A stretch of 45,757 bases of DNA from Desulfurellaceae bacterium (lineage in GTDB: Bacteria; Campylobacterota_A; Desulfurellia; Desulfurellales; Hippeaceae). Below the pieces are notes generated by a model, which saw nothing but the letters and a program-made list of their open reading frames with translations, searched no databases and was not told the origin of the DNA. Where the stretch lies: the NCBI GenBank assembly GCA_015486965.1, contig WFQQ01000067.1:1-45757 (forward strand). Direction: 5' to 3'. Below, in pieces: positions 4,057 to 24,864 of the stretch. Numbering within the stretch: the stretch's first letter is position 1; each line of letters opens with the position of its first letter. A program made the translations under genes and the position numbers.

Positions 4057-5148
4057 CTACACATCTCCCACTGCCTTTGCAATCAGGTCTCCCATCTGCT
4101 GGGTGTTTACCCTCTTCTTTCCCTCACTCATAATATCTGGTGTCCTGTATCCCATTTTCAGTACAAGGTCAACCGCTCTCTCTATAACCTCAGCCTCTTC
4201 GTCAAGTTTTAACCCATACTTCAACATCATGGCAGCCGACTCTATCTGTGCAATGGGATTTGCTATGCCCTTCCCTGCTATATCGGGCGCTGAACCGTGG
4301 ATGGGCTCAAACATTCCAACTTTGCCACCAATAGAAGCAGAAGGTAGCATTCCTATAGAACCGGTCAACATGCTCGCCTCATCCGACAGAATATCACCAA
4401 ATATGTTACCAGTAACAATCACATCAAACTGCTTTGGATCCCTTACAAGCTGCATTGCAGCATTGTCCACAAGCAGGTGATTATACTCAACATCTGGGTA
4501 ATCTCTGGCAATGCGATCAACAATATCTCTCCAAAACTGGGATACATCCAGAACATTTGCCTTATCAACGCTTGTAACCTTTCCTCTCCTCTGTCTTGCA
4601 AGCTCAAAGGCAAGTCTGACAATGCGCTCCACCTCTGGCTCTGTATAAACCATAGTATTAACAGCCTTCTTTACACCATCTTCCTCAAATATTCCTCTTG
4701 GTTCTCCAAAATAGATACCTCCTGTTAACTCTCTAACAACCAAAATATCTATACCTCTAATTACTTCGGGCTTCAGTGTACTTGCATCGATAAGTTCATC
4801 AAAAACCTTGGCTGGCCTTAAATTAGCAAAAGCACCAAGAGCTTTTCTTATACCCAAAAGACCCGCTTCGGGTTTTTTATCCTGCGGAAGATTATCCCAC
4901 TTGGGACCCCCTACAGCTCCAAAAAATAGAGCATCACACTTTAAAATTTTGTCAACCTCACTTTTGGGCAGAGGCTCACCGAATTTATCTATAGCGCACC
5001 CACCAACATATACCTTCTCATATTCAAATTCATGGTTAAATCTTCGTGCCACCTCATTCAGAACCTTCAAACCTTCTGCAACAATCTCAGGTCCTATACC
5101 ATCACCCTCCATAACGGCTATTTTAAACCTTCCCATTTTACACCTCAA
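4057..5148 (-). CDS. leuB: 3-isopropylmalate dehydrogenase
   Basis: [61 protein letters not shown]; adjacent to leuD/leuC. Confidence 0.97.
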
Positions 5149-21393: not shown

Positions 21394-22570
21394 GCTATTT
21401 TATGTGGCAATAGTGGGCGCAGGAGCAAGTGGCCTTGCCTGCGCCTATTTTCTTAAAAACAGAAACATAATAATATTTGATAAATACGAGGGGGCAAGGA
21501 AGTTATCAATCACGGGAAACAACAGATGCAACATAACAAATATGCTGCCCCTTGAAGAATTCCTTGAACAATACGGTAAAAACGGAAGATTTTTGAGAGA
21601 CACATTTAACAACTTCTTTAGAGAAGAGCTTATTGAATGGCTCGAAGACCTCGGTGTAAAAACCACTACAGAAAATGGCAGGGTGTTTTTAAAAAACAAA
21701 AGCTCGGAACAATTTTCGGAACTTTTGAAATCAAAAGTGGAACATAAAGTTTCACTGTTTAAAAAATTCGAGCCAGTTGTGGATATAGCAAATGATAGAA
21801 AAGTATTTCTGATTAGAACACAAAAAGGCATATATAAATCCAAGGTCGTGGTGTTAACCTGTGGAGGCATGAGCTTCCCTAAAACAGGTTCTCGTGGCTC
21901 CTGCTACAAACTTGCAAGGAAATTAGGGCATACAATAACAGATTTAGAACCGATGGAAACACCGTTTTGTGCTAAAAACTGCTGCAGCTCATTAAAAGGC
22001 ACAACCCTATCCAATGTAAAGGTAACACTTACTGTCAACAATAAAAATATTACAGAAAGAGGAGACCTTATATTTACACACTTCGGGGTCAGTGGACCCG
22101 TAATTTTTAAACTGTCAGGTAATAGTTTCCAGCAAGCAATCTTGAGAATTGAACTTTTAGAAAACAGCAAAGAGATTATTAAAAAGCTGCACTTTTACAG
22201 GGGGAAGGTCAGAAATTTTCTTTCCCAATTCATACCAGCAAGACTCTCACAAATTGCCCCATATTCAGAAGAACTTGCCGCCAACCTCAATAAAAGTCAG
22301 CTAAACCTGATAAAAGAGTTTCTATCAAACTTTACATTGGAAGTTAAAAAATGTGGATTTGACAGAGCTTTCGTTACAAAAGGTGGAGTGAGCCTAAAAG
22401 AGGTAAACCCTAAAACCTTTGAGTCAAAACTCATCAAAAACCTATTTTTCGGCGGTGAGGTACTTGATATTCAGGGAAACATCGGCGGTTTTAACCTACA
22501 GTTCGCATTCTCAAGTGGCTACACAATAGCAAAATCAATCAACGAAAGATTCGGTCAGATAATCGCTTAG
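21386..22570 (+). CDS. NAD(P)/FAD-dependent oxidoreductase, HI0933/BaiN/YhiN family
   Basis: TTG start; VAIVGAGASGLACAYFLKN, KLSITGNNRCNITNM, LTCGGMSFPKTGSRGSCYKLARKLGHTI, TKGGVSLKEVNPKTFESKLIKNLFFGGEVLDIQGNIGGFNLQFAFSSGYTIAKSI. Confidence 0.94.
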   Translation: MSKLFYVAIVGAGASGLACAYFLKNRNIIIFDKYEGARKLSITGNNRCNITNMLPLEEFLEQYGKNGRFLRDTFNNFFREELIEWLEDLGVKTTTENGRVFLKNKSSEQFSELLKSKVEHKVSLFKKFEPVVDIANDRKVFLIRTQKGIYKSKVVVLTCGGMSFPKTGSRGSCYKLARKLGHTITDLEPMETPFCAKNCCSSLKGTTLSNVKVTLTVNNKNITERGDLIFTHFGVSGPVIFKLSGNSFQQAILRIELLENSKEIIKKLHFYRGKVRNFLSQFIPARLSQIAPYSEELAANLNKSQLNLIKEFLSNFTLEVKKCGFDRAFVTKGGVSLKEVNPKTFESKLIKNLFFGGEVLDIQGNIGGFNLQFAFSSGYTIAKSINERFGQIIA

Positions 22571-23680
22571 AGCATCTGCAACCTTTTCAGGTTCTATAAC
22601 ATGTTGATATATTTTGGTTATTGGTTTAAACTTCGCATTATGATAATAAATAGAGTCCTGTATTATATCCTCAAGCAGATTTATGGAAAACAACGCATAT
22701 CTCGTTTCTTCTAAAGGACTTTCATCTATCGAAGATGTGTACAATCCCTTCTCAGGGCTATAATAAGATGTTATTAAGTTCATCAATGCATTAATTTTGT
22801 TTGTAAGCTCATTTAACTCATTTTCTTCAAATTGCTGAATTTTTGAATAAACAAAATCAATGGAATAAACAAGCTTTGCTATCTCTTTTAACTTTAAATT
22901 CATATTGGCATAGCTTAAAAGATAAATTAGCCATAGTTTTGAATTTTCAGGTACTTTCTTCAAATGGTCTAAAATAAAACAAACTTTGAAAAACCCACCC
23001 AGCGTTTTAGGAACTATTTTAACTAACTTTTCTTCATCAATAACGCTCTGCAATTCTTTGGAGAGTTTATTCTCCCATATATTTAAAAGCTCATGCTGAA
23101 AATTTAAAATTTTTATTTTTACATCCATCCTATTTATAACGGGCTTCAAACTTTTGTCTTCTTTCAAAATGCTTTCAAAAATATCTCTTGGTACTCTATA
23201 GGCCTGCCGACTTCCCCACGCAGGTACAACACCAATTTTTCCATGCTCTACTATCCACTTTGGTTTTATTAAAGCATATCTTAGAGATTTTTTAAGGATG
23301 TATAAAAATAATCTGTCATCATAAGGCACTCTTTCACCCTTAACTTTCTTAGCCACTTTAGAAATTTTGAAATCAAAAAATGGTAAATCTTCCCTATCAG
23401 CATATTGAAACTCAATGAGGAGCTTTTCATCATTTCCAATCTTTACTATAAAATCTGGCTCTCGTGTAACTCCGCCTTTTCTTAAAAACCATAAAAATTT
23501 ATCGCCTCCGTATTTTTCAACCGAAATATCTTCTCTTTTGTATTCTTCTTTTAATTTTTTCTCAAGCCAATCCTTAATTTCTAACTCGGCAATAGCTTTC
23601 TTTTTCATATCCCGTCTATATTCAATATATGTTCTGGCTTTTATATCACTAGATTGTGCATACATTAACTTTGCATTCAT
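22535..23680 (-). CDS. Predicted type II restriction endonuclease (PD-(D/E)XK-like, E-x-Q variant)
   Basis: Adjacent to the DNA methyltransferase; VTREPDFIVKIGNDEKLLIEFQYADRED fits PD-x(n)-E-x-Q nuclease core; AT-rich; function inferred from context. Confidence 0.6.
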   Translation of the reverse strand: MNAKLMYAQSSDIKARTYIEYRRDMKKKAIAELEIKDWLEKKLKEEYKREDISVEKYGGDKFLWFLRKGGVTREPDFIVKIGNDEKLLIEFQYADREDLPFFDFKISKVAKKVKGERVPYDDRLFLYILKKSLRYALIKPKWIVEHGKIGVVPAWGSRQAYRVPRDIFESILKEDKSLKPVINRMDVKIKILNFQHELLNIWENKLSKELQSVIDEEKLVKIVPKTLGGFFKVCFILDHLKKVPENSKLWLIYLLSYANMNLKLKEIAKLVYSIDFVYSKIQQFEENELNELTNKINALMNLITSYYSPEKGLYTSSIDESPLEETRYALFSINLLEDIIQDSIYYHNAKFKPITKIYQHVIEPEKVADALSDYLTESFVD

Positions 23681-23691
23681 CTATACCCACC

Positions 23692-24741
23692 TCATAATAG
23701 CCTTCTTTGATAATTCTTTATTCTTTTTATCGCTTCATTTGCTAATTCTGGGTTTATTTCATAACCAATACCATTCCTTTTTAGATCCTTTGCAGCTACT
23801 AATGTCGTACCTGATCCTAAAAACGGATCTAATACCGTTTCTCCAACAAAGCTATATGCTTTTATTAATCTATATGGCAACTCATAAGGGAACGGCGCTG
23901 GATGATTTCTATTATTTCCACTTTTCTCTGGCTTCATTACCCAAACATCAGATTTTTTAATTTCTATCCAGAAATCCTTATCTATCTTTGATTCTTCTCT
24001 TTGCTCTTTTGTCAGATGAGCATATTTTTTATAATTCTTGGGTGCGGGTTTTTCAAATTCCAGTATAAACTCATGAGCATAGTTTATGAGAATGTTTCCT
24101 GGATAAGGATATGTTCCAAAATGCGCTCTAACAGAGTTTGTCTTTTGCCATATTATCTCTCTACGAAATACAAAACCTATATCCTCGCATAAATCAATGG
24201 TTTTACCTACTATATTCAAACTTCTAAAACCATTTTCGGTTCTTACAGGTAAATTCATAATGTTGATAAACGCCTTTCTTCCGGGCTGTAAAACCCTAAA
24301 AACCTCTTTCCATACTTTACCTATTTCTACAAACCATTCATCTAAATTATGTATATTTCCCAAATCACCCTCTATGGGCTCTTTAGAATAAAGTTTTGCA
24401 TCAAAATATGGTGGTGAAGTAATCATTAAATGGATTGAGTTATCTTCTAACTCACTCATATCTCTTGCATCTTTAATAAACACTGTTTGGCAAAATTCAC
24501 CTTTGCAAAGATCAACCTTATCTAAAAAAGTCTTCGATTTCACACTGTTCGTGTGGCTTAAAACAAAGCTATTCTCAACTTTCTTTACATCCCTAATATC
24601 AAACCTATACTGCCCGCTTGCTGACTTAAAACCTGCCAACCTTCCAGATTTCAACAGATTATGCACATCCTTAACACCTATTCCTAAGTAGCGGGCAACC
24701 TCAATTGCAGATAGATACTTTCTTTTTTTATAATCGTCCAT
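23692..24741 (-). CDS. DNA methyltransferase (beta-class, N4-cytosine/N6-adenine type) with N-terminal excisionase/MerR-like HTH
   Basis: N-terminal YLSAIEVARYLGIGVKDVHNLLKSGRLAGFKSASGQYRFDIRDVKK; catalytic motif ITSPPYFDAKLY; SAM motif VLDPFLGSGTTLVAAKDLKRNGIGYEINPE. Confidence 0.92.
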   Translation of the reverse strand: MDDYKKRKYLSAIEVARYLGIGVKDVHNLLKSGRLAGFKSASGQYRFDIRDVKKVENSFVLSHTNSVKSKTFLDKVDLCKGEFCQTVFIKDARDMSELEDNSIHLMITSPPYFDAKLYSKEPIEGDLGNIHNLDEWFVEIGKVWKEVFRVLQPGRKAFINIMNLPVRTENGFRSLNIVGKTIDLCEDIGFVFRREIIWQKTNSVRAHFGTYPYPGNILINYAHEFILEFEKPAPKNYKKYAHLTKEQREESKIDKDFWIEIKKSDVWVMKPEKSGNNRNHPAPFPYELPYRLIKAYSFVGETVLDPFLGSGTTLVAAKDLKRNGIGYEINPELANEAIKRIKNYQRRLL

Positions 24742-24795
24742 CTCTCTCCTTCCCCAACTCCTTTAGAGTATGAAACAAAAAATACTTAGTCAAAT

Positions 24796-24819
24796 TATTG
24801 CTTTTAATATTGCTCTTGA
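24796..24819. repeat. Two tandem 12-bp imperfect direct repeats in the divergent promoter region
   Basis: TATTGCTTTTAA (24796-24807) directly followed by TATTGCTCTTGA (24808-24819), 10/12 identical. Confidence 0.6.
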
Positions 24820-24844
24820 TTTTTTCAGGATTAAATTAAATAAT
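24816..24844 (+). promoter_or_regulatory. Sigma70-like promoter candidate for the SIMPL-hemG pair
   Basis: TTGATT (24816-24821), 17-nt spacer, AATAAT (24839-24844), then GGGAGG and ATG 24865. Confidence 0.45.
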
Positions 24845-24864
24845 TACCAAAAAGGGAGGTAGAC

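Follow-up and report, generated by a model that had tools for sequence, protein, structure and literature searches.

A candidate type II restriction-modification gene pair with a Gln-containing PD-(D/E)XK-like nuclease and ACGT as its predicted recognition site

Two neighbouring genes lie on the minus strand of the window, i.e., the whole stretch of 45,757 nucleotides that was analysed: a methyltransferase (methylase) gene, read first (24741..23692), and the gene of a 381-aa predicted nuclease downstream of it (23680..22535). Both open reading frames were found at the coordinates and on the strand given in the original prediction, with the spacing between them corrected from ten bases to 11 nt (23691-23681). 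At its 3' end the nuclease gene shares 36 bp with the gene that flanks it. The features of the locus are collected in Table 1.

Table 1. Positions of the gene pair and its features in the window.
Feature	Position	Strand	Basis
Methyltransferase gene, 349 aa, beta-class N6A/N4C with N-terminal HTH	23692..24741	-	ORF; Pfam N6_N4_Mtase E 1.9e-44; PADLOC MTase_II E 2.4e-63; 64% homologue in G023 without nuclease
HTH_17 (excisionase/MerR-like), residues 9-53	24583..24717	-	Pfam E 2.6e-7; kept in paired as well as solitary homologues
TSPPY catalytic motif IV, residues 108-112	24406..24420	-	sequence; conserved with G023 homologue
DPFLGSGTT AdoMet-binding motif, residues 305-313	23803..23829	-	sequence; largely conserved
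GAGGTG, likely RBS of nuclease gene; overlaps the TGA stop of the methylase	23688..23693	-	junction sequence
Predicted nuclease gene, 381 aa, uncatalogued PD-(D/E)XQ family	22535..23680	-	ORF; no library match; methylase-linked homologues in 36 loci; AlphaFold2 pLDDT 87.7
Catalytic N-domain, PD-(D/E)XK-like, residues 15-176	23153..23638	-	domain model; Foldseek matches Hjc, RecU, I-Ssp6803I, NhoI, EcoRV, MspI
Core PDFIVKIGNDEKLLIEFQ; D76, E90, Q92 invariant	23405..23458	-	alignment of homologues
All-helical C-terminal domain, residues 178-380	22541..23149	-	model secondary structure; absent from remote L081 homologue
Stretch between two conserved flanking genes; 58-78 bp instead in siblings G007, G010, G011, G012	22571..24864	.	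sibling comparison

Both genes proved to be AT-rich, as had been claimed, with a GC content of 0.34 for the methylase and 0.31 for the nuclease (GC3 about 0.27), whereas the window's remaining long ORFs average 0.412 (sd 0.023) and go no lower than 0.375. The pair is flanked by a putative FAD-oxidoreductase gene and a gene for a 231-aa protein. These neighbours are adjacent in four siblings, and the pair thus fills a site that these relatives leave unoccupied; a search of 24 other genomes from the phylum detected no nuclease. Horizontal transfer of the putative restriction-modification (R-M) pair, also part of the original prediction, is supported at the sequence level by this empty site, by the low GC content and by a methylase clade that spans archaea and bacteria (see below), and linked pairs were found elsewhere.

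The methylase was typed as a type II methyltransferase by PADLOC, and its N6_N4_Mtase domain covers residues 103-338. The TSPPYFD and DPFLGSGTT motifs noted earlier were both recovered, and TSPPY precedes DPFLGSGTT, as expected together with this domain for the beta class. The N-terminal excisionase/MerR-like HTH described with them corresponds to Pfam HTH_17. The target of the enzyme is probably N4-cytosine, a prediction drawn from the TSPPY motif and from the relation to m4C enzymes acting at CTAG.

The predicted nuclease fits no family in Pfam, NCBIfam, PADLOC or the PDB, although REBASE may hold predicted or characterised relatives. No match to the 381-aa protein was found in the first three libraries, nor by sequence in the PDB, where a 32-member nuclease profile also returned no match. 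Library scans of individual family members yielded scattered weak matches only.

It was evident from the alignment that the E-x-Q core, originally read as PD-(D/E)XK-like, is strongly conserved. Residues D76, E90, Q92, D103, K105, S107 and K108 were invariant in 32 of 32 aligned homologues, and E32 was nearly so. The third active-site position of PD-(D/E)XK enzymes is Lys, with Gln or Glu as known variants; in every aligned homologue it is taken by Gln 92, which is followed by the invariant K105 and K108. The core is also kept in a remote 216-aa homologue (L081:6034-6681, minus strand; hhalign probability 97 to the nuclease N-domain), which retains PDYF...EFQFG...YDVKKNKV and lacks the C-terminal domain. 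This protein, possibly a second, smaller version of the predicted cutter, is encoded on the strand opposite to an adjoining, solitary-looking HTH-methylase of the same type.

The AlphaFold2 model of the 381-aa protein was confident and comprised two domains, the N-terminal one alpha/beta and the C-terminal one entirely helical. When the full-length model was compared with the PDB by Foldseek, chance matches only were obtained, mostly helical, because the C-terminal domain dominates such a search; the N-domain had to be used alone. The list then obtained was headed mainly by PD-(D/E)XK enzymes, with a best E-value of 0.0077 and none at 0.001 or better in the PDB: Hjc (probability 0.93-0.98), I-Ssp6803I, RecU, NhoI, EcoRV, MspI, DpnI and HinP1I. 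A search of BFVD (E 7.9e-4) matched a NO VEIN C-terminal protein as well as RecU proteins.

The order of elements, helix-Glu, Asp and Glu-x-Gln, agrees with the PD-(D/E)XK superfamily, as do the core alpha/beta fold of the model, the conserved D76 and E90, and Gln 92 at the third position. Assignment of the modelled N-domain as PD-(D/E)XK-like is supported by the consistent match list and the invariant residues together, no single E-value being decisive. The helical C-terminal domain may serve specificity or dimerisation.

Gln also replaces the catalytic Lys in BglII and NotI (PMC4081073), but no sequence relation of these enzymes to the 381-aa protein was found, and neither was among the 50 fold matches listed. 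Archaeal Hjc, RecU and I-Ssp6803I, which the catalytic domain matches best in fold, share only 5-16% sequence identity with it. Unlike the 381-aa protein, these resolvases (Hjc, RecU) and this homing enzyme (I-Ssp6803I) have no methylase partner.

When contigs were scanned with an alignment of two methylase sequences, 65 loci from bacteria and archaea were obtained, of which 64 encoded methylases 50-79% identical to that of the window. The closest relatives, from a Methanoxibalbensis archaeon (79%), Thermotogaceae (74%) and Planctomycetota (74%), formed a well-supported mixed archaeal and bacterial clade in the methylase tree. A nuclease homologue was encoded downstream on the same strand in 36 loci, mostly a few bases away or overlapping. 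Since homologues of both genes recur in the same order in 36 contigs of many phyla, the gene pair is more than a chance arrangement, and the separate, linked genes are as expected for a type II system. These linked homologues, along with the invariant residues and the PD-(D/E)XK-like fold, support the core of the original prediction, in which an E-x-Q nuclease forms part of a type II R-M system.

In three paired loci another gene was inserted between methylase and nuclease, namely a TPR-protein gene in L033 and L034 (6053-7183 in L034) and a gene for an unrelated 203-aa protein in L077 (3744-4355). The methylases of L033 and L034 are identical even though the records are titled TA06 and WOR-3; a single lineage may have been given two names, or there may be contamination.

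A further 26 loci carried the methylase without a nuclease neighbour, and no nuclease copy was found in the whole genomes of these 26 hosts. Genome G023 carries a 64% identical methylase homologue and no nuclease. In no genome was the nuclease seen at a great distance from the methylase, and no nuclease relative was found in the viral contigs, phages and plasmids searched. Paired and solitary forms were interleaved in the methylase tree; the best tree has 12 changes, of which strongly supported branches force at least three. A broken nuclease adjoined an intact methylase in L022, L026 and L036, which is consistent with solitary methylases arising by nuclease loss. Only L082 showed the reverse, a broken methylase next to an intact nuclease, for which an error in the MAG sequence may be responsible.

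In L085, a HARE-HTH and PDDEXK_5-like protein (4214-4957, plus strand) is encoded upstream of a truncated HTH-methylase. The nuclease in that genome is reduced to a 32-aa match, possibly through a swap of one nuclease for another.

The recognition site, called unknown in the original prediction, became predictable from sequence depletion, with exceptions among the hosts. Palindromes avoided near paired but not solitary methylases were sought in an exploratory scan. ACGT was observed 108 times versus 395 expected near paired loci (330 kb, O/E 0.27) and 346 times versus 440 expected near solitary loci (217 kb, O/E 0.79). The resulting ratio of 0.35 corresponded to z -8.7 among 136 4-mers, the next being TCGA at z -2.7, and the contrast was reached in 0 of 20,000 trials of label shuffling, relatedness of the hosts being ignored in both tests. 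Depletion persisted whichever of the tried bases flanked ACGT; a site of four bases only is therefore probable.

The window itself contained one ACGT versus 60 expected. In samples of 49-400 kb, O/E was 0.13 for the window genome versus 0.76-0.80 for its siblings G010, G011 and G012; samples of 20-100 kb were used for other genomes. Two newly found paired genomes gave 0.23 (G785, depleted) and 0.87 (G684, not depleted). Avoidance of ACGT thus tracks the presence of the nuclease, with exceptions on both sides: siblings G008 (0.03) and G007 (0.46) and the unpaired G453 (0.39) were depleted, and the paired L058 and L028, like G684, were not. In a tree-based independent-pairs test an average of 2.4 of the 3 pairs ran in the expected direction, three supported pairs being too few for significance. 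On this evidence, ACGT is predicted as the recognition site with good confidence.

Other sites were considered and set aside. CTAG was strongly depleted in the window genome (0.05), but the siblings were depleted as well. GGCC, GATC and CATATG, candidates in a first comparison within the genus, were outdone by ACGT across phyla.

The exceptions lend some weight to the alternative that this is a genuine type II system with a site other than ACGT, the depletion being caused by other R-M systems or a common host lifestyle: ACGT is avoided in G008 and G007, which lack the pair, and not in the paired G684. TCGA, GATC and GGCC were also avoided more in paired hosts (ratios 0.71-0.74), so that these hosts may carry more R-M systems. 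This alternative is nevertheless considered unlikely, as ACGT is far outlying across many phyla and the closest pairless siblings show no avoidance of it.

Far less probable is a different role for the second protein, as a nuclease acting on methylated or damaged DNA or guided by the methylase rather than as a classical R-M cutter. Holliday-junction resolvases among the fold neighbours of the N-domain and the lack of any assignment for the C-terminal domain would fit such a role. Against it, ACGT is avoided in nuclease hosts and not in methylase-only hosts, the pattern that cutting of unmodified ACGT by the nuclease would leave; a nuclease directed at modified sites would be incompatible with a methylase active on those sites, and in no genome was the nuclease seen at a great distance from the methylase.

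The preferred reading, held at a probability of roughly 0.78, is a horizontally acquired two-gene type II (type IIP) R-M system with ACGT as its site, an N4C-type methylase and a PD-(D/E)XK nuclease with Gln. The HTH-fused beta-class methylase would mark host DNA at ACGT, most likely as N4-methylcytosine, and the 381-aa PD-(D/E)XK-family protein, with Gln for the catalytic Lys, would cut unmodified ACGT in incoming DNA, its C-terminal helical domain presumably giving specificity or dimerisation. In its working the pair would resemble a type IIP system, linkage being observed and both shared specificity and cleavage being predicted.

It had also been proposed that the methylase may regulate its own transcription. 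By repressing its own operon through the HTH, the methylase would time expression of the nuclease after entry into a new host. The methylases of Ecl18kI and MspI are 5-methylcytosine enzymes. Self-repression of their own genes by their N-terminal HTH is established (PMC3874152), and the HTH of the window methylase, likewise N-terminal and highly conserved, differs in being an HTH_17 on an amino-methylase. No inverted repeat that could serve as an operator was found upstream in the window, and none was common to homologues. Moreover, solitary methylases keep the HTH as well as paired ones do, and the HTH was not visible in the alignment for the paired L077 and L079, for which reason it may be dispensable for pairing. 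Autoregulation, so far without support from these comparisons, is thus a rather doubtful part of the picture; the HTH could equally help the methylase to hold its target. A literature search found nothing specific on HTH-fused amino-methylases.

When known systems are considered, HpyCH4IV and TaiI are ACGT isoschizomers, and the likeness of these enzymes and of MaeII to the pair lies in ACGT, predicted here from depletion. MaeII cuts A^CGT and M.MaeII makes 5-methylcytosine (PMC10113651). The pair would be a MaeII isoschizomer, although its modification half differs, being a beta-class amino-methylase (N6_N4_Mtase) and not an m5C enzyme. The MjaI, MthZI and MaeI systems (CTAG, m4C) have a related beta-class methylase, that of the MthZI plasmid being 34.7% identical to the window's, but they have no HTH, a short unrelated nuclease of about 200 aa and another site.

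There is an even chance that the 381-aa protein stands as prototype for a PD-(D/E)XQ restriction endonuclease family not described before, with a helical C-domain and ACGT as its site, and that it travels between archaeal and bacterial hosts together with an N4-cytosine methylase fused to an HTH, a methylase that repeatedly loses the nuclease and persists alone as a possible epigenetic regulator. If true, a widespread endonuclease family with a concrete predicted specificity has been missed by standard annotation libraries. The paired and solitary forms of one methylase would then offer a natural contrast for the passage from R-M system to orphan methylase, which bears as well on the role of the fused DNA-binding domain, and homologues from thermophiles may be a source of heat-stable enzymes that cut ACGT and of an N4-type methylase for this site.

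Two siblings of the window genome carry MjaI-like two-gene pairs, composed of a methylase 44% identical to the window methylase and a protein of about 200 aa (L005 in G008, L004 in G011), and CTAG was strongly depleted in both. In G008 (loci L128-L147), where ACGT is nearly absent without the pair, CGCG was depleted as well (O/E 0.12), and another ACGT-cutting system may exist there.
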